From Closterium sp. NIES-65 (lineage: Eukaryota > Streptophyta > Zygnematophyceae > Desmidiales > Closteriaceae), in the NCBI GenBank assembly GCA_948144175.1, contig CANXME010002129.1, positions 1-64,000 on the forward strand: a stretch of 64,000 nt of DNA, read 5' to 3'. Position numbers and translations under genes: made by a program. The stretch's first letter is position 1. The number at the start of each line of letters is the position of its first letter. The notes below the pieces were generated by a model. It saw only the letters and a list, made by a program, of their open reading frames with translations. It did not search any database and was not told where the DNA came from. Shown here piece by piece: positions 3,901 through 62,217 of this stretch.

Positions 3901-4637
3901 CCACGGTAACAGACACCCTCATAACTAATAGTCACCGCATACATGGCAGCAAGAATAGCATCAAAGTCAAGGTCAAAGATAGCTACTCCCGCCCTAGACA
4001 GCTCGCCCCAGCGAGGGATCTCAATGGCCTCAGGGAAACTGGTGACGCCAAGCGTCCATAAGGCGGCCAAAGCAGCGCTGGGTGGAGGTGCGCACCTCCG
4101 CACTGCTCACCCGTGCGGTCGCCGGTGCGTATGACGTAGGTGCACGGACCTGTACCCCCACCCCGCTGGCGTGCAGCGTACCATTCACGGAGCTGCTGAG
4201 GGGGGGGGATGTCACGAGTGCGCTGCTGCTGCTTCTACTGCTGGCGCTGACCATCACCGGAGCCGACCCTCTGCGCAACGCCACCCCGACCAGCTCCGCC
4301 TCCTCCGCCGCCGCCTCCTCCTCCGCCGCCACCTCTGCCACCTCCGCTCCCACCGTCACCGCCGCCGCCGCCTCCGCCTCCACTGCCGCCACCGACACCT
4401 CCATCCCCGCCACCACTCCCACAACCACCCCCACCCCCTCCACTACCTACACCGCCACCTCTGCCACCCCCTGCCAGCCCCTCCAGCGCCCTTGCCCCCC
4501 TTGCCCTTGCCGGTGCGGCGTCTCCCGCTCGGGGCAGACGTAGTGGCCGACCGACTCGAAACCAACGAGGTCGGCCGCAGCAGCAGAGGCAACAGAGGGC
4601 AAAAGAGGGGAGGGGGAACACCCCTCAAAGACGGGGG
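3780..4637 (-). pseudogene. Element A gag, 3' part (Gly-rich region and zinc-like motif)
   Basis: Continuation of the gag begun at 12385, after the element B insertion. It contains a Gly-rich run (about 4235-4500 on the minus strand) followed by a Cys/His segment equivalent to that seen in B and C. Frames 4030-4443, 4443-4628 and 3780-4103 each hold part of the homology, so at least two frameshifts are present. On the plus strand the Gly codons appear as a CCNCCN-rich tract, which gives long spurious Pro/Ser/Thr-rich reading frames. Confidence 0.75.
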
Positions 4638-39282: not shown

Positions 39283-42200
39283 TTACGTGGCTGCAGCACC
39301 TCCCGCGGCCTTCTCTGCAGCCTCCTTGGCCTTGGAGTCTCGCTGCTGCTGCGCCACCTGTGCCACTGTGTGCGCCATGGCCTGGTGGGCAAAGTCCAGA
39401 GAGCCCATCAGACTGCTGAACCGCGCCGGGTCCGATGCTTGCACCCCTGGTTTATTCACGGAGTGGAGAGGGGTGGCGAAAGTGGGGCAGGAGGGCAGCC
39501 AGGGGCAGAGGAGAAGGTATGGATGGGGGAAAGAGGTTAAGGAGGGAGGGAGGGTCAGGTGCGAGGGGGGAAGCCAGGAGCAACATGAGCCATGCAATCT
39601 GCTTGCTGTCATGGTGGCGCAGAGAATGGAAGGGTCGAGTGGACGAAGGGGAGCTTCAGGCAGTACAACACACTGCTGGCTGTGGCGTGGCCTCTCACTG
39701 GCCACAGCATGGCATCCCATGGTATCGAAGAATGGGATGAAGAAATCGATGTCATCGATGGGTGTGAGCATCTCATCTGCCTTGCTGTGTGTGTGTGTAT
39801 GAGCCACAACATGCACTCCATGAAGTAGATGCTCTCTCACCGGCCATGATGTCCGAGAAGTGGATGAAGGGGTCAACATCATCGATGGGCGTGAGCATCT
39901 CATCCTCGTCCGACCAGAAGCCCTCATCGTCCTCATCCTCCTCCTCATCCCCATCCAACATCTTGTGCGCCTGCCGTGCCATGCCATGCCATGCCATGCC
40001 AAGAAAAAGAGCCGAGCACACAGCGATGAGGAACATAGCAGGGCAGGGCACGGCACATGGCAGGCAAGCACCAGCACATGTGGGGAAGGGAAGGAACATG
40101 CAGCTATGACATGAAAGTGGAAGGTGTCACCCGGCAGCACACTGCAACTCCCCCTTCACATCGCCCATACTAGGAGTAATTCAGGTAAATTGCACAAGTG
40201 AAGGAGGAGGGCGTGGCATGAGAGGAAGCAGCATGGCTGTCAAACTGACCTTCTTAATGGCCTTCTTAAGCTCTGATGACTCCTCCCCTTCCTCCTCCTC
40301 TTCCTCCTCATCCTCATCCTCCTCCCCACCATCTCCCATGCCATCCTCGCCCTCCTCGTCATCATCGTCGTCCTCTGACTCCAACTCCGCTGCTGCTCAC
40401 ACACGCACACAGGGAGAGGGAGAGGGAGGCAGCAACAAATGGGCGGGGGAGGAAGGACTGATTTGGGCAGCTGGTCCGTCGCTGCTTCAAGCCCTTTGTG
40501 ACCCCGACATCGGCAGCACAACCTTGCAGCTTCACACAGAGCACCTACCATCTTGCTTAAGTCACATTCCTTGCTCTCACTCACTCATCCCAAGTGCTCT
40601 GACAGTCACTCACCCTCCTGTTGCTCCTTGTACGCCACGAGCAGCTGCAGCACGGCCTTGGCGAATTCGCCCTGCAGCGGTGCCACGGATGCCGGCAGCG
40701 CAGCCGTGGGCAGGGAGAGCAGCGACACCAGCCCCAGAATGCACACCTTCTTGTCGTGCTGCCTGTGGCCGGGGGACCGGGAGGGAAAGAAGGGAGAGGA
40801 AGGGTAGTTTGGGTCAATGTGGAGGACAGGAGAGACACAAATGGAAAAGAGAACGGAAAGGAAGAAAAAAAAAAACTACTGAATTTACAGGTTCATGTGC
40901 AATTTCTTGCTCTGACCTCTTGAAGTGAAGGCGCTTGCTGGTGGTCTGGCTCTTGGCCTGCAGCATGGTGAGCCACGTCTGAAACACGCCTGCTGTTGCC
41001 CCCATACCCTCCAGCGTCTGCAGTGTGAGCTGCGCGTTGTAGTACAGCCCATTGGCCACCACCTGTGGCAGGGGAGAGACGAATGGAGAGAGAGCAAGAG
41101 TGCGAACGATAGGATTGGATTGATAGTGGAAAAGAATGTAGGAGTACATACCGCAAAATGAAATGATTGCCACCTGTGGAAGTACCACAGGCGGAGATAT
41201 GAGCACCAACAGCAGCAGCAGCGGCAGCAGCAGCAGCAGCAGCAGCGGCAGCGGCAGAAGCACAAACGGACCTGCATGAGGTCTTTGAAGTGGCCAAGGG
41301 AGGCCTTGTTGCGGCGAGAGAGGGCGAGCTGCAGCAGCAGTGGCAGCAGGAGCAGCAGCAGGGGCAGCAGCAGCAAGGGCAAGCACAGACCTGCATGAGG
41401 AGGTCCTTGAGGTGGCGCAGGGAGGCCTTGTTGAGACGCGTGAGGGCGAGCTGCAGGTACAGCGGCAGCCACGCGTCCACCCGCCCACGGCAGTTGAGCA
41501 GCACCACCTCCATCAGCTTGGGTGCTGGCACCACGTCCCGATCGCTGATGTCGTCATCACTCAAAAGCTGCGGGGGCAAGGGAAGAGAAGGCAGAGGGTG
41601 ATACTGCGGTGAGTCTAGGGCAAAGAGAGGGCTGTGTGCGTGTCATGGGCGGCAGTTGAGCAGCAGCACCTCCATCAGCTTGGGTACTGGTACCACGTCC
41701 CGATTGCTGATGTCATCGGCACTCAACAACTGCGGGGGCAAGGGAAGGGAGAGTCAGGATAAAGTGGTGGGTGAGTGAAACTGACCAAAGAATGGGGGAG
41801 CACTGTGAATTTGGGCAGTGCAAGCGCACCAATTTGTGCACTATCGCTCACAGCGTGCTGCATGTGATTGACCTTGTGCCAAATGCCCTCTGCCCTGCCA
41901 CATCCTACTCTCTATGTGCACTGACACACCATGCTCTCTGCATGCCCACGGACCAAAAGAGAGAGGTTTACCTTGGAGAGCAGCTTCCAGAGCGAGTCGG
42001 GGTAGTTGGGGTCGGGGCACGTGAGGAAGTGCTCCGTGCCGCGTGAGATGAAGTTGTCAAGAGGGTCCAACGCGTCTGAAGGGAGGGGACACACGGGGAG
42101 TAGGACGGCACAATGGGGCGTGGCGGGAAAAGGATGAGGGTAGGACATGGGGTGAGGGGGTAGGTTTGATGCAGGAGAAAGGGCGGAAGCAGGGAGCAGG

Positions 42201-45200
42201 GCAAGAGCAGGTCGCATAGAGCAGCTCGCATAGAGCAGGTGGCATAGAGCAGGCGGCATAGAGCAGGTCGCATAGAGCAGGTCGCATAGAGCAGGTCGCA
42301 TAGAGCAGGTGGCATAGAGCAGGGAGCATAGAGCAGGTGGCATAGAGCAGGGAGCAGGGTGGGGCCGTACACTCAAAGAAGTCGATGGCGAATTCGTTGA
42401 GGGAGGAGAGGATGAGCGGCCAGATGGACCAGAGGGCGGGCGAGATGGACGGGCTGTAGTACGTCATGTAGGTGGCTATCTCCAACACCTCCTCGTACAG
42501 GTCTGCCACATGCCATGCCATGCCATGATTGCAATGTGACGCCATAATTGCAATGTGCCCCATGCCATACCACGCCACACAATGAATGGAAGGAGAGGGA
42601 GACAATGAGACGGTGCCCATTGCTGTCACTAAACCCTTCCGAACCCGCCACCATGCCATCTCAGCAACGCACTCTGCGCTGTGCTATGGCAAGGCGCCTC
42701 AAAATGTCACATACCCCCGTTCATGCACAGCAAACGCACTCCCAGCTCCAAAACCAGCCCACCATAGGTAACAACCCTCCCAGACATACCCCCAGCTCAG
42801 CCCACCATAGGTAATCGCACAAGAGCCTCTTCACCCACCTTGGCAATCGCACAAGAGCCTCTTGACGCACCTTGGCAATCGCACAAGGGCCTCTTGACGC
42901 ACCTTGGCAATCGCACAAGAGCCTCTTCACCCACCTTGGCCCTCAGACGTGAGCATCTTGTGCAGGATGGGCAGCAGCGTGGGCTCCAGCTGCGGGAAGA
43001 GGTGCGGCAGCGAGGAGATGGACTCGAGCACCGTGCCCACGGCCCTCAGACACCCCGCTGCCGCCAGCGCACTCATGTCATCCACCGCCTCCTCGCTCTC
43101 TCCTCCCTCTGCTGCCTCTGACGACCGCACACACTTCCAGAACGCCGCCGCCTGCCAGTGGGAGATGGTACGACAAGGAGAGAGAAAGGGAGGAAGGGGA
43201 GTAAGGGATGGGCTCGAGCACCGTGCCCATGGCCCTCAGGCACCCCGCTGCCGCCAGCGCACTCATGTCATCCACTGCCTCCTCGCTCTCCCCGCCATCT
43301 GCTGCCTCTGACGACCGCACACACTTCCAGAACGCCGCCGCCTGCCATGGGGAGAGGGTGGTAGGAGGATGGGACAGGGAAAAGTGTGATGCATGCTTAT
43401 GTGGTGAAGTTCCTTCTCCCTGCAAACCTCCCAGCCCTCTCATGCTGTTTTCGCACACGTGATGGTTTGCTGCATTCTATGAGAGATAGGCTGATTGGCG
43501 TGGACCAATGGGTATGGCCGACAGGCAAGGCAGGCATGGCAGGCAGGCAGGCATGACAGGCAGGCAGGCATGGCAGGCAGGCAGGCTAGGTGGGCAGGGC
43601 GGGAAGGGCGGACAGGGAGAGGCGGGCAGGACGGGAAGAGGACAGGGTAGGAAGGGCGGGTAGTGTGATGTGGCACGTACGAGGTTGTGGATGAGGCCGA
43701 CGGCGAAGGGCGACATCTCCTCGCCAAACTTCTCCACGATGACCTCCAATGTGAACACCAGGTCCTCGTTCTCCACCTCGTGCATCAGCTTGAAGAAATC
43801 TGCAATGGTTGGGGGTGGTGACAAGGGGTGGAGAGCGGTGAGAGTGGTGTTAGGGTGAACACCAGGTCCTCGTTCTCCACCTCGTGCATCAGCTTGAAAA
43901 AGTCTGTTAAAAGTGGTGACAAGGGGTGGAGAGCGGTGAGAGTAGTGCTAGGGTGGGCACACACCGTGTGGCAAAAGGTGGAGTGAGGTTAATGCAGCAG
44001 AGAAAGAACACGGAGATAGCAATGTGAGGGCATGGAAAAGGAGGCAGGATGAGGGGTAGGCATGGACTGGTAGGCAAGGCAGATTGTAAGCACACGCGGT
44101 TAGGTAGGAGCGGCAGTAAATGGGGAAGCATGAGACAAGAATGGTCTTCAGGCATGGTAAAGGGGCATGAGAAGCGAGGGCATACCGTCAAGCAGATTGG
44201 GAATGATGGGGCGCAGCTGGTCCAGGTCTGCACACAGGGAGGCAGGGGTGTGGGAGTATGGGCGGTGGAGAGGTGTTAGCGTGGATCAAGGAGGATGCAT
44301 GGGGGGATGGTGAGGGATAAAGAGGGGCGAAGATGCATGGAGGGAGATGGGATGGAGAGCATGTGGAGGAGGGAAAAGCACGCAAGGCATAATAGCAACA
44401 GGCAATTGTTTCCCATCCTTGCCTGTTACATTCGGCAGAGATTTCACTTGGTTTGCTGCTTTTGAGCCTGCTCCTAGCAGTGCCTGCCTCTCACTCACCT
44501 TCACATGCGTCCACAAAGGAGCGCAGCGCCACGACAGCGTCGACGCGCACGGGCAGCTCCGGGTCGCGCAGCAGCCCCACCACCGCCTGCATGTAGTGCA
44601 CCCCCCCCCCCCCCCCCCAGTGCCCCACTCATTCACACGCGTGCTTCACCTTCTCACCTTCACATGCATCCACGAAGGAGCGCAGAGCCACAACCGCGTC
44701 AACGCGCACGGGCAGCTCAGGGTCGCGCAGCAGCCCCACCACCGCCTGCAGTGCGCCCCCAAAGTGCGCCGGGTTGCTGAAGGGGATGTCCGCGTACTGC
44801 CCCGCCACCCACGCCGCCTGAGGAGCACAGGACGGATGGGGAGGATGGGGAAGATCGGGAGAATGGGGAGGATGGGGAGGATGATGCTTAGGATATACAA
44901 TGACCACCAGACACCCTTGGTTTTTCTTAAAGGCTCCAATGCCCAGCCTCCCTCTACCGCTCCTTCACTTCCACCATGCTCTTCTCACAACCCCCCTTAG
45001 CCATCTCCTCCCCACGACAACCATCCACTCGATTCCTCCAGCCCGTGGTCACCATGCCACAGAGGAATTGAGCAGGTGATTCGGTTGAAAGCACACCTTG
45101 GCGCGGAGGAAGGCGCAGGGGCTGGTGAACTCAGGGAAGACGTGCGTGAGCAGCATGTGCTCCAGCTGCGCCTTGTAGCGCGCCGTGCCCTGCAGCTTCT

Positions 45201-46405
45201 CATGCAGCGCGCCTATTGCCAGCAGCGCCCCGTCCTTCTGCCTCGCCTGCGCCGCCTTCTGCTCCGGTGCCGCCTCGTTGTACCTGCTTCCCCAACGTGG
45301 CATGGGCAATAAGGGCAATCAGGGTGCTGGGTGCCTGAGGTGGTGACTGTTGAAACAGGAACAAGAAGAAGGCTGTCCATGTTGCTTCAGCTCTCAGCGT
45401 GCTGGCACACGATGCACTGCCCAGCACATGAGCCACCACGCCGTGTGCTTGCCCTCATCCCAGCCACCAGCATGCACCATGCAGCAGCACTGACCGGTTG
45501 AGGATGAGGACGAGGGCGGCAATGAAGGGGTCGAGCGTGTCCTTGCTCCTCTTTGTCACCAGCTCCGCCAGGAAGTTGAGTGCCGCTGTGCGCGCACTGT
45601 ACATGTCCTCTATGATGTCTGGGGTTGGGGGGAGTGGAACAAGGGGAAGAAGAAATAAGGTGAAGTTGGTTGGGGAATGGAATGGGTACATGGAGTGAGG
45701 GACAGAATCAGGGAGGTGAATGGCGGGTTAGTTGGTTGGGAGTTGACATGAACAGCTTCATCTGTTTCTTCCTTACCCCTCCAATGCACCACAGTGCTCC
45801 CTCCCGTTCACTCACCACATCCCACCTCCCCTCTCCTCCCACACATGCCGTAACCTTGCGGACGTATTTGAGGGGACTGTTGGCCCACACAATCCCCTCT
45901 TCCCGCCCCTTCACCCACCGTAGCCTTTGCGGACGTATTCGAGGGGGTTATTAGCCCAGAGCAGTGCATCGCACCCCTGCCCCCCCATCCCCTTCCCTCT
46001 TCCCCACACACCGTACTCTCCCCTCCCCTACCCACCATATCCCTTGCGGACGTATTCGAGGGGGTTGTCGGCCCAGAGCAGGGCATCGTGGTCGTTGAAG
46101 CACAGCAGCGGGAACGCCACCTCGAACTGCAGCACCTGCAGATGCGGCTTCAGTGACTCGTACAGCGCCTTCTTTGACAGACTGGTGTCACGCACACATG
46201 CACACATGGGGACAGGCAGACGAGGGATGAGCGAGCTAGGCTGGTTATTGAGTGCGGACAATGGGAAGAACAATTTACGACAGTGGAAAGGCATGGGGCA
46301 ACAAGAATGGGGCAACAAGAATGGGGCAACAAGAATGGGAGACCGTTGCGTGGCATGCTGTTGTTGCCAAATCCATGGCATCATGCAAGTGCACACGCAT
46401 GCACG

Positions 46406-46458
<53 letters not shown>

Positions 46459-49400
46459 CCAACCACACACCCAACCACACCCGCACCCACACACGCACCT
46501 GTAGGTGACGTATTGCATGGCAAGGTTGGTGATGCGGTCGGGCAGGCTGTTGGGGTCGGTGCGCACGGGCGCCAGCAGGTGCAGGTACGAGTTCAGCAGG
46601 CGGCCAGCGCACTTGTCCGCGAACATGGTGGCGAACGCCTTGTCATCGCCCTTGGCGTACTTGGGATTGCCAAACCTGCGGGACAGGGACGAATGGGGGT
46701 GTGGTAACTTGTGAGGCAACCAAAACATGCGGGCAGCGCACTTATTGGCAAACATGGAGACGAACGCCCTGTCCTCGCCCGCCCTTGGCGTACTCGGGAT
46801 TGCCAAACCTCTGGGAGCGTGGGGAATGGGTGAGTGCGGTTAACGACGTGAGAGCGTGTGGAATCGCAACTGATGACACGAGAGCCCCTCGCACATGCGG
46901 TTGATGTGCAACAGCCACTTCTTGACCTTTCCACCATGCCCGTAACCCCCACGCCCTTGCCCAGAACCTTCAACGCCCCCCCAGCATCCCTTGAAGGGCA
47001 TCGCCAACACAGCATCCCACCCACCTGTGGAACATGCGGTTGATGATGTGCAGCAGCCACTTCTTCACCTTCCACCACGCCCACTGCTTGCGCTGCTCGG
47101 GGTCCGACGGCTGCCCTTCAGTGGGCACAGGCCGCTCCAGCAGCGCGTGGAAGCACTCCATCCACGCCAGGAACACCGCCTCCTGCTGCACCATCTCGGG
47201 CACCTTGAGCTGTTATTGGGGGATCGGGGTTGACAGCGGTGGTGGTATGAGGGAGGAACGGAAGCGGAGAGGGGAAGGGTGGGTTTAGCAGCGTGTAGAA
47301 GCATTCCATCCACGCCAGGAGCACGCCCTCCTGCCTCAGCGGCCATCAGGATGAGGGGTGGTGGGTTGGGGGAATGGGGAAATGGGAAGATGAAGAAACG
47401 GAATGATAGGGAGACGGAGAGATGGGGGGATGGGTATGGAAGGGACGTTAGAGGAGAGAGAAGGGGTAGCACCACAAGAGCGCGTACGCTCATCCGTTCA
47501 CGCAGCATTGCTTAGAGTCGCATGCCCATTCACGCGGGTGGAGATGTGGCACTCACGTAGCAGGCGGACCAGAAGATCTTGAGCACGAGCTTGATGTACT
47601 CGGCAATATCGAGGGACGGGTTGGGCACGGCCAGCAGCTGCTGCAGAATGACCAGCAGCTGCGGGAAGGTGCTGGTTACCACCTCGTGCACGGGCACGCG
47701 GTCCTCCTCGTCCTTGAACCTGCACGCGCACGAGGAGCGGGGGGGTGTGGGGGACGGAGAATGAAAGGAGTGGATGGCGGATGGCGGGTGCGAGCACGGA
47801 AGAGAAAGGGCAGGGAAGGTACACGTGCCACGATTGCACGTACTCGTATTTGCGCGCGACCCATCACGCCCCATCACACGTACTCGTATTTCGGCGCGAC
47901 CCATCACGCCCCATCACACGTACTCGTATTTGCGCGCGACCCATCACGCCCCATCACACGTACTCGTATTTGCGCGCGAGCACGCGGACGACGACGAGCG
48001 CGCCGTAGACGCGCGGCTGGTCGGGGCTGTGCAGGTTCGCGAGCGCCTGCTGCAGCAGCGCCGGCATGCGCTCGGGGTAGTCGCTCTGCACCACCGCCTT
48101 GAGCACCTCGATCAGCTGCGACCTGCGGGGGGTGCAGAGTGGGGGGAAGCGGCAGGGGGGAGAGTGGAGGGAGCGTGAATGGGTGTCAGGGGTGTCAGGT
48201 GAACGGGGGTAAAGGGTCCAATAAGCAATTGCAGATTCAAAATGATTACAGAAGGGTAGGGGTGAGAACACGAATCGAAGACGGGAATGCACGGGCAGCA
48301 AGCGATGCATGTGCAGCGCGGGAATGCGAGGGCAGGACGGCAGCGCACCTGATGAGCGGCGGGCAGCAGATGACGGCCTCCACGAGGTTGTCCCGCACCG
48401 CCGCCACGTCACCCTCCGAGAACAGCGGCGAACCTGCCGGGATCGCCGGGGATGGAACGCGCACACTTTTAATGAAACGCTCAGCAGGCTACGAGAATCA
48501 TATCACCCGCCAATGGCATCCTATACCATCCGCCCACCCCGATCCCATCCCTCGCCCTCGTCGAACAAGTATAGCCTCATCCGTTATGGCACTCGAGTAC
48601 CACCTGCTTCGATATAAGACGGTGCGCTTGGTTCCTTCCGCGTGAACTATCCCATCGTCTGCTCATCTCACAGAGCCGCATTCTCAAATTCTTTGTCAGG
48701 CACTGACTAGAACAATTAGCTTATAACGAGGCGACGACTCACCTGAAGAAGCGGCCTCGGTAGCGTCGGATTTGGTTCTCCAGTTGCGCGACACGGTGTT
48801 CTTGAAGTGAATAGCCGCCACCTGGCGGATCGCGAGGTCCACGTCAGCACGCACGACCATCTGCAGCAGCGCCACGAGATGCCCCGGCACGAACTGATTC
48901 TGCCGATTCGGAACGAGGACGGGGGGAGCAAGGAGATGACGAAAGAAGTTAGTTAGGCGTCGCCTGAGATTGCGACAATGCGCGAACGCAGCGGCGGTTT
49001 GAACGGTTTCCGTCGACGGGGCAAATTCCTCGTTGTCGAGCAATGCTCGTGCTCCTCGATCATGCTTGCGTTCGGTCAAGCAAGTGGGATATAATGAAGC
49101 GAAACCCGGAGTTTTGGAACGCAAGAATATACGAATTCAGCTAGCTAAGTTGTGAGAAAGGACAACTATCGATTTGCTAAGAAAGGATGCACAGACGGGA
49201 TGATATACGGACATGATGATCTACGGACAGAATGATTCACCGAAGGGATGATCTACAAACGGGATGATCTACGAAAGGGATGATTTACGGACGGGATGAT
49301 CTACGGACGGGATAAACTACGAGCGGGATAATCTACATAAGAAATGATCTACGAACGGGAAGATTTACAGACGGACCTGCACGAGGTGAGCCTCGCCGGC

Positions 49401-49466: not shown

Positions 49467-50376
49467 GGCGGCGATATGCACGAAACACGCGGAGCAGACG
49501 AAAGTTGCGGACCCGCGCACGGGCAGACGAGGCTAGAGCGGGCTAGAATCTTGCAGGAGTAGAGATGCAACGCGTGCTGGCCTCGAGCTTGCCAAGGCAA
49601 AGAGAGCGCAACAGCGGAATTCTCGAGGAATTTATTGTGAGGTTGCGGTGGGGGAAGACTCAGAAGTGATGGTTCTTGGGGGATGGACGGGATGGTGTGG
49701 GATGGGATGGGTCACGGATTCACGGGTGTCAGGCATCCATGCTGTGATGTGCTGTGCAACCACCTGTGAGATTCGCCCGAGAAGGGAATGAGTTCCCAAG
49801 AAGAGCCTGACGGGTTCAGGGTTCAGGGTTTATTTCGTGGAAAACTAGTGGCCCATGTGTGTCGCACACAGCGAGGCGGCGTGGGGTTGAGGGTGCCGTG
49901 GCGACAGTCTACGACCGTTGCAACAGATCTCACTAATGCTGCTCCAGTAACGGGGATGGCAAGTTGTTCTCCTGATATGGCTATTTGTGAACTTATACGT
50001 TACATGATGAATACTTAATATCTAACCCCATGTGAACAGGTGTACCGCAGGAAGTGCCAATCCGCCCTACATGCTCAGGATGGGTCACAGGGCAGTTTCC
50101 CTAACAAACACGAGCCCAAAACGTACGGTTATCAGGCCTGGTGGCACATGACCAGGCAAACCCTGGAAGTTAGTACATGCACCAAAATAACACCAGCGGA
50201 TGCCCTCCCAGTCTCAGCTTCGGTGCTGGATTACAGCCAGGCATCAATCCCTCATCCGAGTCTCTACAGGGAAGCGCTGCAATGGGAAGCCGCAACGAGA
50301 AACAACTTCATGCCTCGAGATGCTTCACACCAAGAGCGACACACTGAGAACCACATTCACTTCACGCCTCACTGCT
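49467..50376. other. Region between the importin start and the glutamate synthase stop
   Basis: About 910 bp: 5' flank and promoter of the importin gene (its first codon is at 49466) and 3' flank of the glutamate synthase gene, both on the minus strand. The plus frame at 50040-50582 overlaps the terminal exon and is not supported. No transposon or RNA gene was recognised. Confidence 0.5.
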
Positions 50377-53300
50377 TCATGCAAGAGCAGCGACGGGCTC
50401 CTCAGCAGCAGGCGCCTTGGCTTCTGGCGAGTTGGCTTCGCTGGGCGGCACGAGCTGCCAGAAGAGCGGCAGGAACTTGTCCCAATCCGCCAGGATGGCG
50501 GCCGCCTTGGCACTGCCCGTCAGATCCTGCTCAGCACACAGAGATGGTGGGAGGAGGAGATGCATGTGAGTGGGGAAAGTAGGGATACTTGTTCTAACAC
50601 AATTACACCTTGCATGATGCCTTTGCCCTGCAATAAGGGCGACAGAGAAACAAGGACGAGTGCAGGCACGGTGAGAGAGTCGGTGTGAGTGGGTGCAGAG
50701 AGAGCGTACCGCATGGTCCTGGATGAGCGACTTGAGCTGCTGCTGGCCCCCTGGTGACACCACTCTCTGCATCGCCACAATCTCCCGGTTCACCTGAGGA
50801 ATCACATCGATGTAACCAGCCAGATACAGCAAGGTTAGGAAGATAAATGCAGTAGAAATTCCTGATGTGAAGAGAAGTAAATAGATGTGACGGGGGGACA
50901 GTCGAGACAGAGATATCACCCACATTAAAACAGAAGGGGACGGGAGACGAGGTGGCAATAATAGGTAAGGAAGAGTGGGCAACGGACCTTGGGGGAGAAG
51001 GTGTCGTCCTCATCCAGGAAGTACCCGATGCCTCCCGTCATGCCCGCTGCTACATTGCGCCCCACCCTGTGGAACGCCGAGGGGAAAAAGGGGCCAGGGA
51101 GAGAGAGACAAGCGGTGAGGCCCAAACTCAACCCGTGATTCTCAATCCCCTAACCAAGGTGCCAGCCACCATGCACTCACAGCAGTGGCGAGCGGGTTAA
51201 GATATTTGGTCAATGCCTCATGCCCCCCCATGTCACTGCTCTCCCGTGTCCCAAATCCCTCGATCCCCCAACCCGCCAGCTGGGACTCACTTGCCAAGCG
51301 CCACAACAGTGCCGCCAGTCATGTACTCGCAGCAGTGGTCACCGGCGCCCTCCAGCACGGCATACACTTTGTAGTTGCGCACTGCAAAGCCTTTGAGTCG
51401 TTTCAAAACACTAGCACTCACTTGCCAAGGGCCACGACGGTGCCGCCAGTCATGTACTCGCAGCAGTGGTCACCGGCGCCCTCCAGCACGGCCTGCGCAT
51501 TGGAGTTGCGCACAGCGAAGCGCTCCCCCGCACACCCGCGCACAAACAGCCGCCCGCCCGTGGCGCCGTAGAGACACGTGTTGCCGATGATGGTGGCTGT
51601 CTCTGCCTGGAAGGTCGCTGCCTTGGACGGCACCACCACGATCTGCCCCCCCGCCATGCCCTGTGAGGCATCAGGTGAGGTGTGGGGGGAGGGAGATGGG
51701 ACAAGAAAGGATGTACGGATGAGGAAAAGGGTGATGAACGGCAGAAAGAAAGAGGTTTCTGCCGTAAGTGCTGTGCAGAGAGGTGCTGCAGTTCTGGTGG
51801 CAAGGTGTCTCCGTTGTTTATAGTACCTTGCCCACGTAGTCGTTGGCCTCGCCGATGAGCCGAATGTTCATCCCGCCTGCCAGGAAGCACCCAAACGACT
51901 GCCCTGCGCTGCCCTTGAACCTGCAGAAAGGAATACCATGGGGAAGGGAAAGAAGAGTGTGGAAGAACGTGGGTCTTGATCCGGACAAGGTATATGTGGA
52001 GTGGCAAAATGTGAGCCAAATGTGAGCCCGCACAAACAGAGAATATGAGGGTTGGCCTGCTCCAAAAGGTATATCTAGTGCACCCATATTGCAGGGAGGG
52101 CGAAGAACATCAGAGGCGAAGGATGATGCAGACGGGAGTGGGGGAGCGGGGGAGCAGTGGGAGGCTCACGTGATGTTGACGGCACCAGTGAAGCCCGAGT
52201 CCCCATGGCGCTTGGCAATGGCGCCCGCCACGCGGCCACACGTGGAGCGGTCCGTGTTGACTATGGGCGTGGCCAGCTGCACCACCTTGTTCTGCTCTAT
52301 GGCCGCCATCACCTGCTCGTCGGCACACAGGGGACACACGTTGGGCGCACAGGGGAGCACAAGGGGCAGGGCGGGCAGGAAAGGGAAACAGAGTGAAGGT
52401 CAGTGAGCAGCCTGTGTTGACTATGGGCGTGGCCAGCTGCACCACCTTGTTCTGCTCTATGGCCGCCATTACCTGCACACGGGGAGAAGAGCGAGGGCTT
52501 GCGATTAGCAAAACAATGTTCAGAGCAAGCAATGTCGACAGATACATGATGCATGTATGTCATACGGATGTAGGGAGGGAGGCCAGCGAGTTGCAATCAC
52601 GTGGGGGGTGTATCATGTATGTATAGGAAAGGTGGGCATATGTTGGGGGTGGGGGTGCAACGCACGGTGGGGTTGGCGAGGAGGGTGTCGTCCAGCATGG
52701 GCCCGTTGGAGTGCACCTCCTGTGCCATGCGCTCCGTGCTGCTTGCTGATGACACCCCGGGGTACTGCCATGTGCGCGCAGACGAGAGGAGGAATGGGTA
52801 GACAGTGAGGGGGGGGGGGGGGGGGGGGGGGAGGGGGGGGAAGGGGGGTTTGAGAACACGTGTTGGAGTGCACCTCCTGTGCCATGCACGCTGAGCTGCT
52901 CGCCGATGACACCCCGGGGTACTGGTGGGGCGCCGTGGCATGGGGGAGAGGTGGGGCGAGACGAGGGAGGGCCGGTGTTGATGTTGTTAGTGAGGATGGA
53001 GGAATAATGGATTCTGTAGGCGCATGCAATGTACATGGCGATGTAGCATAGCAGTGAGGACATTGGGAACCAATGGCATGCATGCATGCATGCACAGGTG
53101 GAGGACAGGCCCATGGTGTGAGGGGCAAGGAGCAGCGTGCATGGCTGAGAGGGTGTGCAGGGGTGGCCGATGTGCATGCAGAGGCGAGGGGCAGCTTACG
53201 GTGAGGAGGTAGGAGAGGTCGATGGAGTTGGTCTTAGCGAGTGCCACATCCCTGGCCTTGAGTGCGTTCACTCGCCCCACCAGCTCGTCCAGACTCTTCA

Positions 53301-53667
53301 TGCCCAGTGATGCCAGCCCAACCCGCACCTGCAATGCGCGGGGAGGAGAGAGATGGGTTTCAAAGGGCGGAGGTGGACGAGTGAGGAGGGGAGGCGGCCA
53401 ACTAGCAGGGAACTGATGAGGGAATACCGACGGAAGGGGAAAGGGGGGAGGGATATGTGCAGGGTGGTCCAAACTCATCGTGCTTTTAAAAGGGAGGAGG
53501 AGAGACCAAGCACAAGCAGGAGAGGGAGAAAAAGGGAGAGGGAGAGGGCGAGGGAGAGGGAGAGGGCGAGGGAGTGGAACGGCAATGACCTCCTCTGCAA
53601 CGAAGACAAAGTAGTTGACCAGGTCTGACGGCACCCCTGGGAAGCGCGCCCTCAGCTCCTCCCTCTG

Positions 53668-53717
<50 letters not shown>

Positions 53718-56700
53718 GCACACACACACACACACACACATACACACACACACACATGTGCATGGTTGCAGGGGGAAGAGAGGCACCGGGGCACACACGG
53801 AGAAAGAGGCTAAGTGGAAAAGAGAAGCGAGAGCGGAAACAAGATGAGGGACACACGGAGTTGATAGAAAAGGTATTGGGCGGTTGCTTAGAGCCAACAA
53901 ACAGTATGCCCAGAACCAGCATTTCTAGCAAGAGACGCCAGCTGAAAGTGACGGTGGGTACCTGAGAAGCAACCCCCACAGGGCAGTTGTTGGTGTGGCA
54001 GATGCGAGCCATGATGCACCCCGTGGCGATCATGGCGAGCGACCCAAAGCCAAACTCGTCAGCGCCCATGGCAGCCGCCACGAGCACGTCCGTGCCGCAC
54101 TTGATGCCCCCGTCCACCCTCAGCACCACACGGTCCCTCAGCCCGTTGGCGAGAAGTGTCTGGAAGCGAGGTGAGACGGAAAGAGAGAGAAGTAGAGGGG
54201 GAAAAGAATTGAGGTGAAGAGTAGAGCACGGTGCAAAACGACCGTGTAAAGCGCGACACTCCTAAGACTGGCGTGTTTCACAGAATGCATTCCCTGCCAT
54301 ATGCGTTTCCCACTGCAGTGCCCCATCATCGCACCTGGTGCGTCTCAGTGAGACCCATCTCCCAGGGCCCGCCAGCATGCTTGATGGAGCTGATGGGGCT
54401 GGCGCCCGTGCCGCCATCATGCCCCGAGATCTGGATGATGTCCGCATTCGCCTTGGCCACTCCGCTCGCCACTGTTCCGATGCCCGCCTCCGCCACCAGC
54501 TTCACTGACACCTTCGCCGCTGGGTTCACCTGGGTGGGTGGCAGGGGTTAAAAGGACATGGGGAGGAAATGCAATAAGCTTTGGGTGCAATCAAAGAAAT
54601 GCCCGCCTCCGCCACCAGCTTCACTGACACCTTCGTCACTGGGTTCACCTGGAGTGACAGGGGTTTGGAAGGAGATAAATCAGGCAGCATTAAGGGGAGG
54701 GCAAGTTGGTGGGATCCGCTTCATTCGCATGCATGGCTGATGGTGTCTGTGAACATGACATGCTTTTTGACAGTAATGCGGCGCACACCCACAACCTAAG
54801 AGCACAGTCGAAGCTAGGCTCACCTGGTGGAGGTCGAAGATGAGCTGAGCAAGGTCTTCAATGGAGTAGATGTCATGGTGGGGCGGGGGCGAGATGAGTG
54901 GCACGCCCGGCTTGGAGCTCCGGAGCTGGGCAATGTAGGGCGACACCTTCTTGCCCGGCAGCTGCCCGCCCTCGCCCGGCTTCGCCCCCTGCGCCACCTT
55001 GATCTCCAGCTGCTCCGCATTCGCCAGGAACGTCGGCGTCACGCCAAACCGCCCCGACGCCACCTGCTTGATCGCACTCGTCGCCTTGTCGCCGTTCCTC
55101 AACCCCTTGAGATGGGGGAAGGTGGGCGACCGCCCGTCTGCATCTACATCCTCCAGCTCCACCCATCTCATCGGGTCCTCTCCGCCCTCACCCGAGTTGC
55201 TCTTCCCGCCCAGCCGGTTCATCGCGACCGCGATCACCTCGTGGCACTCCCTGGAAATGGCGCCCAGAGACATGCCTCCGGTGCAGAACCGCGTGGCGAT
55301 CGACGCCGCCGACTCGACCTCCTCCAGGGGAATCGCCGTGCGGCTGGCAGTGTCGAGCTCGAGCAGGTCACGGAGGACGTTGACGGGGCGCGTGGCGAGG
55401 TGGGCCTGGTAGGCGGAGTAGGCGGTCTGCTCCCCCTGGCGCACGGCCTTGTGCAGCAGCTTGCTCATCTCGGGGTTGTTGCTGTGGTACTCGCCGCCCT
55501 GCCTCACCTGCAGGAACCCCATGTTCTCCAGCTTCCCCTTGCCCTCCGCGCCAAACCCCTTCGCCCAGAATGTCAGACTCTCGTTTGCGAGCTGTGGAAA
55601 CCATGGGGACAGGAGGGAGGGAAGACAGGGTGTTATGATGAGTCTTGCTGAACAGCCAGACCTTGTGTCCACAGCATTGCATGGCACAAGGGTGGTATTC
55701 GTGATGTGAAAGCAAGAAATGGAAGGGAGAGGAAGCAACGCCCTGCAGCCCTCACCTCGTCGAGAGTGAGTCCGCCAATGCGGGAGACGGAGCCCTTGAA
55801 GGCGCGGTCCACGACCGGGGCGCCGAGCCCGTAGATCTCAAAGATCTGCGCGCCACAGTAGCTCGACAGCAGCGATATGCCCATCTTGGACAGAATCTTC
55901 ATCAGCCCCTTCTCTATCGCCTGCAGTGATGGGAAGCACAGGGAGATGGGGAATACAGTAAGCTCCAACTCAGCTTGTGGCTGTCAAAGATTCATTCGCC
56001 TGCAAACAGGAATGAGCAATGAGCCCGCCTTGCAGTAACAGAACAAGCAGCAACGGACGCACCTTGCGGTAGTTGAGCTGCGCCTGCTCCGAGGTGACCG
56101 TGGGCAGCTTGCCAAACGTCATGAGCTTCTGCGTCTTCTCACTCGCCCGCCACTGCCGCACCGTCTCCAGGGCGCCGTACGCACACACAGCACTGGCACC
56201 ATACCCCACCAGGCACGCAAAGTGGTGAGTGCTGAAGCACTGCGCCGTCTCCACCACTATCGACGCATTCAGGCGCTTCCCAGTGCGGATCAAATGGTGG
56301 TGCACGGCGCCCACGGCCAATAGCGCCGGGATCGCCGGCCGGGTGGCGTCGAGCTGGTCGGCGTTGTCCGACAGCACTAGCAGCTGCGCTCCAGAGTCAA
56401 CAGCAGCATCAGCAGCAGCACAGAGGGCGTCGAGGCCGCGGGAGAGGGCGCCTTCCACGCCCTGGGAGACGTCGAAGAAGATGGGCAGGCGCGCTGCTGC
56501 GAGCTGCTTGTCGTCCATGAGCTCCTGCATCTCCGCCTCGTTGAGCACTGGCGAGGTGAGACGCACCTGGGGGTAGTAAGGATTGGAAGAGAAGGGGAGG
56601 AAGTGGAAATGCACGGTGAGAGAGAACAGGTTGGAGTGATGATGCTGCTGCTGCTATACGCCTGGAAGGTCCACCTAGTGAGCCCAGCAGCACCACATCA

Positions 56701-59700
56701 ACATCATACCACCATCTCCCAACCTAGTTCACAAGCATGTGGCGAGCCAACAGACATGGTATGTGACAAGACCCCTCACTCCACCGCAACCCAATATCCC
56801 TCCCCTCCACACCCCTAGCAGTGCACGCACCACGTTGGCGTGCTCAGCGCCCACATCCAGGATGTTGTCTCGCCGCCCCAGCGCTATCTCCAGTGACATC
56901 ACCAGGCCCTCTCGCAGAGGGTCGATGGCCGGGTTCGTCACCTGCAGGGACGAGGGGAGTGTGGTGGCGGGGAGTGGCAGCAAGGGACGTGAGTACAAGG
57001 TGCAAATTGGGCCAGCTTGGGAGCCATGCATGCAATCTCCAGCGACATCACCAGACCCTCTCGCAGGGGGTCGATGGCCGGGTTTGTCACCTTCAGGGGC
57101 CATGTCCGAGGGGGATTGGGAGTTGTTAACTTCAGTGCAAGGTGACATGGTGCAATTTCACCCAGGTTGAGAGCCTTCACAGGGTGGTGGGAATGGGGGG
57201 GCATCACTACAACGGATATGGGTGAAACTACAACAGAACTGGCGAAGCCGTGAGAGTGTGGCGTCAGCACAACGGACCTGGGCAAAGCGCTGCTTGAAGT
57301 AGCTGAAGAGCAGGTGGGGGCGCGCGGAGAGCACGGGGAGCGGCGTGTCGTCGCCCATGCAGAAGGTGGGCTCGATGGCCTGCGCTGCCATGCTCTCTAT
57401 CACCATCACCACGTCCTCACTCGAATACCCGTACGCACTGGAGGGGGTTTGCGGTGGTGGGGGATGGTAAAGGATAGCCTGGTGGTTAGTGTAAAGGATT
57501 GATGGGCTTCGGTTGGGAGATGGGAGCGGGATAGGGGGAGGGTAACAGAGACGTGGGAAGACGGCACATGCTGGCGATGAGGCAAGCGGCGTGTTGTCGC
57601 CCGGGAGCTTGGGGGTTGGTGGAGAAGGGCCGATGGGTTTGCATTGGGAGGTGGGAGCGGGATAGGGGGTGGGGAGCAACGGACATGTGGAAAGATGGCC
57701 CAGGGTGGCGAGGCGAGTCATATGAGGGACAACCATCAAAAAGAGAGAGGAGGCATGTTAGAGAACAGGAGGGGGACGGGTGGACAGCAGGGGGGCGTGT
57801 GAATAGCTGGGTGGGGGCATTCGATGTGGGGTGTGCGGGGGAGGGTGGGGAAAGGGAGGAATGGGAAGGGGGGGAAGAGGGGGATGGGCTCACTTTTGCC
57901 TGCGGAGCACTTCGTCAGGGGAGAGGGCTGGCTCAGCAGCGAATGGCATGGGGACGATCTGACGTGACTGGTGGCACACAGAGACCAGCACAGGGGCGAG
58001 CGGGTGGGGGTAAAGGGGGAAACGGGGAAGGGGGGATAATTGCGAGCAGAGAGAAACGGGGAAAGGAAAGGATAGAATAGGGAACAGAGAGAGAAGCTTG
58101 ATGCTCGATGGACACGTGATCCGGGCTGGATATGGTTGTAAACATAACACCATCAACTACCGGGCCAGCTCGGACTCTCTAGCACGCCATCACATGCGCC
58201 CAAACCCCAAACGCACTGACCTCCTTATCGAGCCACTCCTTGAAGGGGTGTGCGTTCGCCACCTGCCGCTTGATGGCCGTGTTGGATAGCACCTGGGAAC
58301 GAAATGGGGAGGGGGGGAAGGAGGTGCAGGGGCAGGGGGAATATTAGAGAAAGAAGGGGGGCCGAGAATGTGAGTCAGGCTGCCACATACCTCTTGCAAG
58401 CAATGCTTGGTTCAGCACACCACACCACAGCACACCACAACACAGCACAGCACAGCAGGTCTCTCACCTCGCCGGTGTGCAGGTCGACGGAGATCATCAT
58501 GCCTGGCCCCAGGCGGCCCTTGCTCACGATGGTCGCCTCGTCCATGTTCAACACTCCCACCTGCCGAGAGGAGGTGAGGGGGCGAAGGGGAGACGGGGAA
58601 GGGGTGGGGAGTGAGCAGAGTGGTAACACATGGTAAGTGTGATGTGCAGGACGCACCCATTCGACTCGTCCATGCTTAGCATGCCCACTCACCACTCATT
58701 CCAGGCAGGGAGGAGGGGAAGGGGAGAAAGAAGGCCAAGGCGGCAACACAGTCAGAAATGCCAAGGGCTTTGGTGTAATGAGGGGCAAGTGAACACGAGG
58801 GTGCAATAGGGAGCTGCAAGGACTCAAGGAGCACACGAGGGTGGGGGCAGGGGACACACCTCAGAGGCGACGTAGAGCATGTCGTCGTTGGTCCTCCAGT
58901 ACCTCGCCGGGCGCAGCCCGTTGCGATCCAGACACGCTCCCACTGTCCTCCCGTTGCTGCAGATCACAAGGAGTGGGTGGACGAGATGGGAGAGAGACAT
59001 AATAGCGCAGTTTGGCATCAGGGTTGGGTACAAACTGGACGCTGATGTGTCGGTGTGAGAAACTATCCGGTTTGGAAACCATGCAGCAGGGGAATGGGGA
59101 GACGCAGGCACACATGAGGCGGGGTTACCTGAAGACGAGCAGGGCAGGTCCATCCCACGCCTCCATCTGCGACTTGTAGTACTCGTAGAAACTCACCACC
59201 TGTTGAAAGAAAGCGTGTGTGGCATACGGGGGAACGGAGTTTAGTGTATTTTTGTTCTCTTCTTGCCTCTATTATGACGAATTATGGCACAGCAACGAGA
59301 AAGCGACCTAGCTTGGCTTGAGGCACTACGCCCATCTGGGTCTGCACGCTCTTCAAACAAAGTACAAGGGGAAATGCGTGTGAGATGACATGACATGAGT
59401 GGAGACACGTACCTCGGGGTACTTGGCGGAGAGCGTGGGGTGGTTCTGGTAGGCCTCAGGCACGAGCATCATCAGCACCTCCTCCGGCCGCCTGCCACTG
59501 TTCAGCAGCAGCTGCGGTCCACGGGAGGCAGGGAGTGGGGGAGGGAGGGAGAGCGGGAGGGAGGGAGGAAAGGGGAAGGCAGAGATAAGGGCATAGCGGA
59601 AGTGGGAGAGGTGGGATGATGGCGTAGGGGAATAGGCTGAGTGACGAATATTGATGGATAAGTGGTAGTGCAATTCTGGTAACTTCTTGCAGTAACACCT

Positions 59701-62217
59701 TCTCAACCATGCGTTTCACCCAAACAAAGACCCCCTGTACCCAGATGTTCTTCTCTCCAGCACCACCACTCCATCCACCCACCATGGCCCCTCACCTCAG
59801 CAACACCGTCCAGATTAGCCGAGTCAGACGCAGCGAGATTAACCACGGGGAAGATATCCGCCTCACGGCCGCGCCACACGGGCGACGTGAGCGTGGGCTC
59901 GCGCGAAACCATCCAATTCAGGTTCCCCTGCAGCGTGTTGATCTCGCCGTTGTGCCCCAGGAACCGCATGGGCTGCGCCAGCAGCCACTTGGGCGTCGTG
60001 TTGGTACTAAACCGCCTGTGGTAGATGGCAAACGGGCTGCGGAACAGCTCGTTCTTCAGGTCCGCGTAAAACGCCCCCACCACCGCCGCGCGCAGCATGC
60101 CCTTGTAGATGATCGTCTTGCTGGACAGCGAGCAGAAGTACAGGTCGTTCAACGGATGCTCTGTTGTTGGCACCCCCGCGGCTGCTGCCTCTGCTGCGAT
60201 GGTGCGTGTGACAGCCTTCTCGATGAGCTTTCGGAGGATGTAGAGCTCGCGCTCCGTGTCGTCCGGGGCGAGGCCTGGCACGGAGAGCACGAGCTGCTGG
60301 ATGGCGGGGAGCGTGACGCGCGCGAAGGGGCCCACCACGGCCTCGTTCACTGGCACCTGGCGCCACCCCACCACCTGCAGCCCGTGCCCCTCCTCCTTGA
60401 TCACTGCCTCCACCACTGGGACGGGCACAAGGGGCGAGACGGGATGCGGGAAGGAGTGTGAAGGATGAGGCTATAAGTGGCAGGAAGTTCGACTAAGCAC
60501 TGTCCCCACGGCCTCGTTGACTGGCACCTGGCGCCACCCCACCACCTCCAGCCCGTGCCCCTCCTCCTTGATCACTGCCTCCACCACTGGGAGGAGGATG
60601 GACGGTGACGGGCGCAAGGGGCGAGACGCGGCGAGAAATGTGAGACGGTACGTCTAGAGTCGGAGAAGAGTGAGGCAATTGGTGGCAGTTCGACTAAACC
60701 CTGAACCCTGGAGTGACTGACCTGTTCACTGCTCACTTCCGCCATTTGTAATCGCGTTCTACTTCATAAAATTTGTACTTTTAACGCTTCTACTACTTTG
60801 CATGTTCATCCCCTTTCGTTCTTCCACTGTCGCCTGAAGTCCTACTCTCCTGCACGCGTCGCAACACTCCGAGCCTTACTTGCTCCCTGGCAGACAGCTT
60901 CGCGACAGCTAATTCCTCCAACGACGCTTCATACAGTAATTCATGCACGGGTCAGTTACTTCGCCTCGCGCATCGACTGGCCTCCAGCATGCACTGAGCC
61001 CGCCGTGGCGTGTTGTATTCCTCCCTATAACACATTCATTTTTTTCATTTTATTTTTCCAAGCCTCTATGCGATTAAAGGCTCACGTTTCTTGGCGGTCT
61101 CGGCGTCGCTCTCCTTCTTCGGCAGGAACACCATGCCCACGCCCGTCGCGGCGCGGTCGAGCGGGCCGCGGCCGTTCTCCTGCTGCCAGCTGTCGAGGAG
61201 ATCCCAAGGCACGGCCGTCATGAGCCCCGCGCCGTCGCCCGAGTCGTTGTCGGCGCTGCACCCGCCGCGATGCTCCATGCACCCCAGCGCCGTCAGGCCC
61301 TGCGCGGGAGCGCGTACGGGAAGGGAAAAAGGGATAACTGTTGAACTAGTGTCGGCGTTACAGCCTACTCATTGCTGACAGAATGCGAGCAGGGAAGCGC
61401 ACGACCATTGTAAAAGTGGATGACGGCGCCGCATGCAGACCCGGACGAGGAGAGGTGGGGACGAGGAGGTAAAAGGAATTCAGAGCTTTTAGTGAAGGGT
61501 GTCGACGGCGAAACAGGCGAGAAACACGGGAAGGTGAACACGGAAACATGAAGAATGAACTTCGCATTACAGAAGGTGATATTTAAAAGCTTGATTGCAA
61601 TAACAGTATTACCTGCTCGATAATCTTATGCGTGGACTCGTTCTTTAGCGATGCGATCAGGCCGACACCGCACGCTCCGTGCTCTTTAAGGAGCTCCTCC
61701 GCGTCCGCCACCTGCGGGTATCCATAACGACGCAAGACATGCATAAATCAACAAAATTGAGATGCCACGCGAGACGGTTCCTCATTCGAAGCTCACAACA
61801 GTAGCGTACAAAACAGCTGCATTTCAAAAAGGTCTTGTGGCCTACTAATATTTACCAAAGATCGACAGAATAAGGTAAAACAATTTGCAAATCGCACAGT
61901 CGCCAACTTAGACGAAGGGGAAAACCTACCTCATAGGCCTTCTCGACGTCATGCGTCGCAACATTTGCCGTCGTGTACGCAGCAGTCGCACGCGACAAGT
62001 TGAAGCGACGGCTTGCGACATTGGCCGTATCGCGGACGGTCACGCGTCTGCAGACAGCAGCACCGGAGAGAAACCTAGACCTTGCGTGCACTGCCACAGA
62101 TGCTCCGAAAAACGACGACGCCTTTCCTCCCTTCTTCCCGCTAGTCGTCTGAAGATCGGCTAGAGACTGAGTACCTCGCGCGAGCAACACTGACTGCTTT
62201 AATACCGCTGTCGCCAT
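50377..62217 (-). CDS. GLU: Ferredoxin-dependent glutamate synthase, plastid (26 exons)
   Basis: Exons in transcript order: 62217-61930, 61711-61613, 61299-61086, 60415-59796, 59511-59413, 59199-59129, 58956-58860, 58560-58468, 58292-58221, 57967-57894, 57437-57278, 56941-56831, 56566-56063, 55920-55756, 55591-54824, 54529-54335, 54159-53962, 53664-53590, 53328-53200, 52764-52666, 52312-52170, 51920-51827, 51660-51422, 51066-50988, 50793-50710, 50526-50377; 4920 nt, 1639 aa, typical of the Fd form. It makes two glutamates from glutamine and 2-oxoglutarate. Residues 1 to about 96 are Ser/Ala/Arg-rich, like a plastid transit peptide. Cys110 (HGACGVG) is the class II amidotransferase nucleophile. 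[14 protein letters not shown] marks the same domain. The 3Fe-4S cysteines are C1258, C1264 and C1269 ([12 protein letters not shown]). A Gly-rich C-terminal beta-helix part follows. No NADH-binding beta domain is fused, so the electron donor should be ferredoxin. Confidence 0.97.
51290..51390 (-). repeat. Copy of exon 23 3' half with donor (glutamate synthase)
   Basis: In the intron after exon 23 the minus strand repeats about 30 codons of its end ([23 protein letters not shown]) followed by the same donor (AAGTGAGT). It lies about 130 bp from the real donor (exon ends at 51422). A possible acceptor, TTTGCAG, stands ahead of it but is out of phase. Confidence 0.9.
52411..52482 (-). repeat. 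Copy of exon 21 5' end with acceptor (glutamate synthase)
   Basis: Upstream of exon 21, the minus strand has GTGCAG then a copy of its first about 20 codons ([20 protein letters not shown]), almost without change. Confidence 0.9.
52808..52850 (+). repeat. Long G-run in a glutamate synthase intron
   Basis: About 40 bases almost entirely G on the plus strand, in the intron between exons 19 and 20. Prone to sequencing error; a G-quadruplex is possible on this strand. Confidence 0.9.
52862..52928 (-). repeat. Copy of exon 20 5' end with acceptor (glutamate synthase)
   Basis: The minus strand repeats CACCAG followed by the start of exon 20 ([17 protein letters not shown]), about 100 bp upstream of the real exon. 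Confidence 0.9.
53669..53757 (-). repeat. (CA)n microsatellite before exon 18 of glutamate synthase
   Basis: About 42 CA dinucleotides with a few CG/TA interruptions, ending only about 5 bp from the acceptor of exon 18 (exon starts at 53664). The minus strand therefore has (TG)n right up to the TGTGCCAG acceptor, with no pyrimidine tract. Confidence 0.95.
54598..54655 (-). repeat. Copy of exon 16 5' end with acceptor (glutamate synthase)
   Basis: The minus strand repeats CTCCAG and the first about 18 codons of exon 16 ([17 protein letters not shown]), about 125 bp upstream of the real exon start at 54529. Confidence 0.9.
57029..57095 (-). repeat. Copy of exon 12 5' end with acceptor (glutamate synthase)
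   Basis: The minus strand repeats [20 protein letters not shown], about 150 bp upstream of exon 12 (start 56941). The acceptor in the copy reads TGAAG instead of TGCAG. Confidence 0.9.
58650..58690 (-). repeat. Diverged copy of exon 8 5' end (glutamate synthase)
   Basis: The minus strand reads VGMLSMDES in place of VGVLNMDEA, about 120 bp upstream of exon 8 (start 58560). Shorter and more diverged than the other copies. Confidence 0.6.
60505..60630 (-). repeat. Copy of exon 4 5' end, acceptor and intron flank (glutamate synthase)
   Basis: The minus strand repeats about 28 codons of exon 4 ([20 protein letters not shown]), the CCCAG acceptor and the adjoining intronic GGGCGCAAGGGGCGAGAC, about 180 bp upstream of the real exon start at 60415. 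The duplication clearly spans the boundary. Confidence 0.9.

Follow-up and report, generated by a model that had tools for sequence, protein, structure and literature searches.

Short tandem duplication as the probable source of exon-edge copies in the introns of two Closterium genes

The introns of an importin-7-like gene and of a ferredoxin-type glutamate synthase gene in Closterium sp. NIES-65 contain partial copies of the edges of the exons next to them. These copies are probably fossils of a widespread and ongoing process of short head-to-tail tandem duplication, with units of approximately 60-220 bp, that acts largely regardless of position. The process would thus be a known class of mutation acting at high density, and selection and splicing presumably decide which of the events in genes survive. 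The window, i.e., the whole stretch of 64,000 nucleotides analysed here, is all of one contig (C1831), and the same region is also found in a second contig of 2.9 Mb (C1894).

Gene models were built with an iterated splice and codon-use model, followed by hand curation of the exons. The curated importin-7-like gene (39283-49466, - strand) has 22 exons encoding 1050 aa, and its protein aligns with importin 7 in a single alignment over residues 16-1045. The curated glutamate synthase gene (50377-62217, - strand) encodes a plastid-type protein of 1639 aa in 26 exons. Residues 110-1627 align with cyanobacterial Fd-GltS, again in a single alignment, and we take the N-terminus to be a transit peptide. 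All 46 introns of the two genes have GT-AG borders. The automatic models of both genes initially called copies as exons; in the curated models the copies sit within introns, and the proteins align to their homologues without inserts of copies.

Each intron was compared with each exon of the same gene by Smith-Waterman alignment, with simple runs masked and a cut-off score of 40. This score was reached on the sense strand by 16 of the 92 flanking intron-exon pairs (10 acceptor-side and 6 donor-side), as opposed to 0 of the 1020 non-flanking pairs in the two genes, and no antisense intron-exon match in either gene reached it. BLAST self-comparison of the two-gene region gave 21 loci, while ten locally shuffled versions of the region gave none with equal criteria. 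Acceptor copies lie upstream and donor copies downstream of the real exon, and the offset between copy and real edge is 98-190 bp in the 16 pairs. A preliminary description of this DNA had reported recurrent exon-edge copies in both genes, in numbers beyond chance and with this same geometry at distances of about 80-200 bp. The search of every intron of the two genes against its flanking exons, with the non-flanking pairs as control, finds the enrichment and agrees with that description on all of these points. If its exon numbering is assumed to be shared with ours, 13 of the 15 exons that it listed have matches scoring at least 40 (importin exons 7, 8, 11, 13, 14, 17, and 21; synthase exons 4, 12, 16, 20, 21, and 23). 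Of the other two, importin exon 4 has a short array and synthase exon 8 a weak match. The list lacked importin exon 6, both sides of which are copied (Table 1).

The exon part of the 16 matches comprises 48-135 aligned bases. In 13 pairs the match crosses the splice site and takes in 3-60 bp of intron, and in the other three (both sides of importin exon 6, and exon 21) it ends 3-23 bp before the splice site. Copies and real exons diverge by 2-22%, and none of the 21 two-gene loci has exon bases in both copies. Introns with copies have a mean length of 402 bp (n = 15) versus 256 bp for introns without (n = 31; P 1e-5), a contrast that is partly true by construction because each copy adds its own length. 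Read in this way, the numbers support the earlier suggestion of a local duplication process that lengthens introns. A self-test of introns only gave P < 0.02 in 16 of the 46 introns, mostly from short-period arrays or from the intron parts of edge events. An importin exon was also sought in viral contigs, where it had no match.

Table 1. Exon-edge copies, related arrays and an intron-only duplication in the two genes (positions in the window; identity is between copy and real exon edge unless stated otherwise).
Feature	Position	Strand	Real or partner sequence	Identity	Offset (bp)	Remarks
Importin exon 4 donor edge, 40-bp x 3.6 array	47837..47979	-				16 exon bases included; edge-test score 32
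Importin exon 6 acceptor-side copy	47287..47334	-	47139-47186	87.5% over 48 bp	148	
Importin exon 6 donor-side copy	46893..46941	-	47032-47082	86.5%	141	
Importin exon 7 acceptor-edge copy	46726..46836	-	46597-46703	78%	133	exon part with 4 inserted bases
Importin exon 8 donor-edge copy	45884..45971	-	46003-46088	82%	117	additional copy at 45826-45887
Importin exon 11 donor-edge copy	44494..44605	-	44653-44760	89%	155	exon substitutions synonymous, 8/8
Importin exon 13 acceptor-edge copy	43855..43955	-	43751-43857	87% over 49 exon and 58 intron bases		no spacer; complete tandem unit
Importin exon 14 acceptor-edge copy	43207..43359	-	43017-43169	93.5% over 153 bp	190	
Importin exon 14 donor edge, 32-bp x 4.3 array	42801..42940	-				6 exon bases included
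Importin exon 17 acceptor-edge copy	41650..41757	-	41488-41594	89%	163	
Importin exon 17 donor-edge copy	41212..41347	-	41331-41469	81%	122	no spacer; intron part mostly AGC triplet run
Importin exon 21 donor-side copy	39717..39777	-	39844-39904	79%	127	
Glutamate synthase exon 4 acceptor-edge copy	60506..60592	-	60335-60421	97.7%	171	spacer likeness to flank, P 0.003
Glutamate synthase exon 8 acceptor edge, weak match, possibly an old copy	58661..58688	-	58533-58560			28 bp; score 26; permutation P 0.0015, but 14/1020 non-flanking pairs score equal or higher
Glutamate synthase exon 12 acceptor-edge copy	57032..57098	-	56883-56949	91%	149	exon substitutions synonymous, 5/5; spacer P 0.010
Glutamate synthase exon 16 acceptor-edge copy	54599..54665	-	54480-54549	90%	116	3-bp indel between contigs within copy
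Glutamate synthase exon 20 acceptor-edge copy	52862..52924	-	52705-52767	90.5%	157	
Glutamate synthase exon 21 acceptor-edge copy	52405..52476	-	52245-52316	94%	160	
Glutamate synthase exon 23 donor-edge copy	51285..51390	-	51416-51521	90.6%	131	third, less alike copy at 51153-51195
Glutamate synthase gene, intron-only duplication without exon bases	57476..57711	-	57476-57577 / 57606-57711	75% between the two copies	130-134	

Duplications of the same kind are also found outside the two genes. With fixed criteria for a locus (direct orientation, offset 60-400 bp, length at least 40 bp, E < 1e-6), they were present in all stretches sampled, at an uneven density of 0.12-1.3 per kb. The two genes hold 21 loci in 22.9 kb (0.92 per kb), C300:50-60 kb holds 13 in 10 kb (1.3 per kb), C1894:1.00-1.02 Mb holds 20 in 20 kb (1.0 per kb), and C1653:102-140 kb holds 15 in 38 kb (0.39 per kb). 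The retroelement-rich part of the window (1-26 kb) has 8 loci (0.31 per kb), and the MYND/CWC15-like genes next to the importin and synthase genes have one in 8.6 kb (0.12 per kb). The C1894 sample, chosen as neutral intergenic DNA, proved to be part of a dispersed repeat, and little weight can be put on its density. From these samples we infer that the duplication process is genome-wide. Among the literature matches listed, none reports a comparable density of exon-edge copies, and the density of duplications appears unusually high, as judged against published work and not against a measured control genome.

When the two genes are taken together with the C300 and C1653 stretches, 52 pairs are direct and none is inverted, zero-offset palindromes being left out. 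The offsets of the 52 direct pairs are 100-175 bp in 34, 50-200 bp in 44, and below 300 bp in 49. The C1894 sample has one inverted pair of 22 bp, which is below the criteria. In the chaperonin family, overlapping profile matches about 220-270 bp apart occur in 3 of 11 genes, in both twin contigs; this count was made by eye from the match positions of 87 scored candidates out of 166, with contigs grouped into genes by hand.

C1653:120354 and C2372:120422 carry another glutamate synthase gene, guessed to be of the NADH type, with 57% identity across the query. This gene also has local duplications, one of which (L014 7688/7842) lies close to the start of an exon. At L020:3389-3550 there is a dispersed element, about 120-160 bp long, that occurs in short tandem clusters on many contigs. 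Within the window, a tandem array of 17 bp x 94 (96% matches) fills 36740-38329, between the CWC15-like and importin genes. Positions 1-26000 hold several open frames that presumably belong to Ty1/copia-like elements, and parts of these elements have further copies in the window and in C1894 that are about 86-88% alike. The coding sequence at 35930-36650, which we take to be CWC15-like, seems to end ahead of AT-rich sequence that contains a local palindrome (35973-36097).

The two contigs allow the copies themselves to be checked. Stretch by stretch, the C1831 region is 99.3-99.9% identical to C1894, and over 25 kb the two differ at only 48 places (40 single-base differences and 8 indels of 1-34 bp); the copies are therefore present in both. 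We infer that the C1894 counterpart is another haplotype. All loci looked up have two or three copies each in the assembly, and one locus is present in three near-identical copies (97-99%; C300, C1866, and C39), so that more than two haplotypes are possible. Such retained copies could in principle have been joined in series, as diverged haplotypes or homeologues, into false tandem duplications. Exon-edge copies that differ from their exon only synonymously had suggested this reading, and it was dropped on the evidence of the second contig, which carries the same copies and differs from the first by far less than the 2-22% that separates copies from exons. The copies moreover hold nonsynonymous changes and indels, and at none of the two-gene loci are there exon bases in both copies. 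An assembly artefact, which the preliminary description had allowed for, is therefore extremely unlikely.

One young event was examined, in the C300 stretch, within a TPR gene that we take to be an SRFR1 homologue. A unit of 137 bp is present twice in C300 (L020:4044-4180 and 4181-4317), identical at 137 of 137 positions and without a spacer, and C39 has the unit once; substitutions between C39 and C300 amount to 1.0% and 1.7% in two aligned pieces. The match of C1866 to the query extends from end to end (1989 bp), and by this length only C1866 seems to carry the unit twice as well. The unit consists of the final 67 bp of coding sequence read as an exon, the donor site, and 70 bp of intron. 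The next downstream copy is older: its exon part differs at 2 of 67 positions, both synonymous in an open frame, while 13 of 70 aligned bases are changed and 24 inserted in its intron half. The young unit and the adjacent older copy share 10 bp of homology at the junction, so this event could as well have arisen by slippage or unequal exchange as by end-joining.

A young exact head-to-tail unit is expected from tandem duplication, and it speaks against the alternative that synthesis-dependent strand annealing copied a nearby segment into a break, which would leave direct copies with an unrelated spacer. Such repair-mediated capture is known in human, including cases with partial exon/intron donors, as far as the excerpt of that study goes (PMC2671141), and 14 of the 16 edge pairs do have a spacer. 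We asked how far spacers resemble the flank expected from a tandem unit in pairs with a spacer of 15-200 bp, an offset of at most 260 bp and a start beyond base 300, which left 25 of 48 genome-sample loci and the 14 edge pairs. The resemblance is found in 11 of the 25 genome-sample pairs (Fisher P 3e-9) and in 3 of the 14 edge pairs (Fisher P 0.014), the other 11 edge pairs being without significant residual homology. The pair at importin exon 13 still displays a complete tandem unit. In addition, 49 of the 52 offsets are below 300 bp, compared with a mean of about 1.2 kb given in the excerpted human set (PMC2671141). Capture as the general source of the copies is accordingly very unlikely, and decayed tandem duplication remains the preferred reading.

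The preliminary description had the process centred on exon/intron boundaries. Break-prone R-loops or nucleosome edges at exons could produce such targeting. An exon is touched by 18 of the 21 two-gene loci, and the offsets are concentrated at 100-175 bp. The genes have short introns, though: if units of the observed lengths are placed at random in the two genes, 55% of placements span exactly one splice site, 27% fall inside an intron, 12% fall inside an exon, and 6% take in two or more sites. We simulated position-blind tandem duplication with removal of damaging events and decay by indels; the simulations reuse the observed offsets together with assumed ages, and their score cut-off is close, not identical, to the BLAST criterion. 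The expected ratio of edge to intron-only loci after decay is 2.3-2.8:1 versus the observed 18:3 (P 0.08-0.15). If short-period arrays are left out on both sides, a mild edge excess appears (16:1, P 0.02-0.04), and dropping arrays from the intron-only side alone gives 18:1 (P 0.01-0.02).

The fraction of the offset covered by the match was simulated as well. Its observed mean is 0.63, versus 0.92 with short simulated indels, and four settings with indel lengths taken from the contig differences gave 0.74, 0.65, 0.55, and 0.77. The contigs differ by 20 indels to 128 substitutions (0.16), a ratio at which the simulated coverage is 0.74 as against 0.63 (P 0.07). The fit improves if a higher indel ratio is assumed (0.3: P 0.40) and deteriorates with younger ages (P 0.03). 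The position-blind model, as simulated, is compatible with both the edge share and the loss of similarity inside introns, and it predicts the upstream and downstream geometry of the copies.

Duplications away from exons point the same way. According to uncurated predicted exons, an exon overlaps a copy at 6 of the 15 C1653 loci, leaving 9 without exon in either copy. Likewise, 10 of the 13 C300 loci have an exon in a copy versus 8.6 expected from random placement, and 3 have none (one exon start, L020:4018, is estimated). The newborn 137-bp unit also reaches almost equally far into exon and intron. Targeting is not needed for the pattern and, as a true property of the process, is quite unlikely, although there may be a mild edge preference.

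The divergence of the copies bears on a further possibility, namely that the duplications are tandem and that the exon-derived copies owe their similarity either to gene conversion with the real exon or to a role as alternative splice sites. Intron parts differ at 36 of 264 aligned sites and exon parts at 107 of 1150, and the ratio of 1.46 is close to what we expect, by our own arithmetic, for an unconstrained copy of a constrained exon (approximately 1.5-1.6), that is, without conversion. The 107 exon-part substitutions fall on codon positions one to three as 26, 17, and 64, and 59 are synonymous and 48 nonsynonymous. Synonymous changes are more frequent than neutrality predicts (P about 0.005-0.02 at transition weight 4), most clearly at importin exon 11 and glutamate synthase exon 12, and this excess would favour conversion or splice use. 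So would the exon halves that are kept far better than their intron halves, as at synthase exon 4 (2 of 81 differences) and in the older SRFR1-like copy. On the other hand, the copies hold indels and nonsynonymous changes, and indel decay can account for part of the exon/intron contrast. We regard conservation by conversion or splicing as quite improbable. The mild edge excess and the synonymous excess remain unexplained by the position-blind model. The duplication machinery of this lineage might combine unit lengths governed by chromatin or replication (the peak at 100-175 bp) with a preference for exon edges; introns would then grow mainly by repeatedly recopying their own exon borders, and conversion would partly keep the exon-derived copies alike. 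This combination is unlikely.

Under the preferred reading of largely position-blind tandem duplication, a unit lying inside an exon or including two splice sites would usually be removed by selection. A unit that spans a single splice site can leave the mRNA as it was: with the upstream donor or the downstream acceptor still in use, the surplus edge and its splice site would become part of the intron, donor copies lying downstream and acceptor copies upstream of the real edge. Both edge copies and intron-only duplications would make introns longer. The intron-derived half of a unit would then erode by indels in both copies, whereas the exon-derived half keeps a conserved partner, and because of this unequal erosion the similarity would seem to end near the splice site. 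The most likely molecular cause, as has been suggested in rice, is end-joining with gap filling at adjacent nicks or at staggered breaks, and unequal exchange or slippage between existing copies may add further ones.

If the density seen here holds genome-wide, short tandem duplication would be a main source of intron length in this organism. Introns would then hold a graded series of newborn, approximately 90% identical and older copies in which birth, tolerance and decay can be measured, and the two or three near-identical contigs found per looked-up locus would make rate estimates possible. A practical warning is that gene finders can take such copies for extra exons, as our initial automatic models did.

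Vaughn and Bennetzen, in 2014, reportedly described short tandem duplications in rice that arise by patch repair of adjacent nicks. The comparisons that follow draw on excerpts of the papers cited. Although the preliminary description knew of no described mechanism for such a pattern, both the short tandem duplications of rice (PMC7971508) and a boundary-crossing duplication in potato (PMC4974935) are on record. More insertions in rice come from tandem duplications than from any other source; these duplications are enriched among mutations of 50-200 bp and have been attributed to the repair of adjacent nicks (PMC7971508). The Closterium duplications resemble them in the enrichment at 50-200 bp, in their within-species variation and in the genome-wide spread described there. 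The sizes in rice are mostly 50-200 bp, with fewer above about 125 bp (PMC7971508), which compares with 44 of 52 offsets at 50-200 bp here, most of them 100-175 bp. Further rice-type features are the exclusively direct orientation (52 versus 0 inverted) and the one young exact unit without filler (137/137). Unlike in rice, where insertions were counted between varieties (PMC7971508), the duplications here have accumulated until three of the six stretches compared show about one detectable locus per kb.

A candidate biochemical route to exact short tandem units, by analogy, is the fill-in by CST and Pol alpha-primase at breaks with complementary 3' overhangs, which makes tandem duplications in mouse cells treated with Cas9 nickases (PMC8355091). 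The excerpt on the human repair-mediated proximal duplications gives 824 events genome-wide, four of them with partial exon/intron donors, at a mean separation of about 1.2 kb and with pairs of up to 50 bp left out (PMC2671141). These are like the present copies in being nearby and in sometimes including partial exons and introns with splice sites, and differ in their separation, 49 of 52 offsets here being below 300 bp. In the potato RdRp gene, a tandem duplication crosses an intron-exon boundary, and its unit holds the 3' side of the intron and the 5' side of the exon, i.e., the anatomy of the acceptor-edge copies in Closterium (PMC4974935). That event made a new intron, according to the excerpt, while the copies described here lie inside the introns of otherwise ordinary genes.
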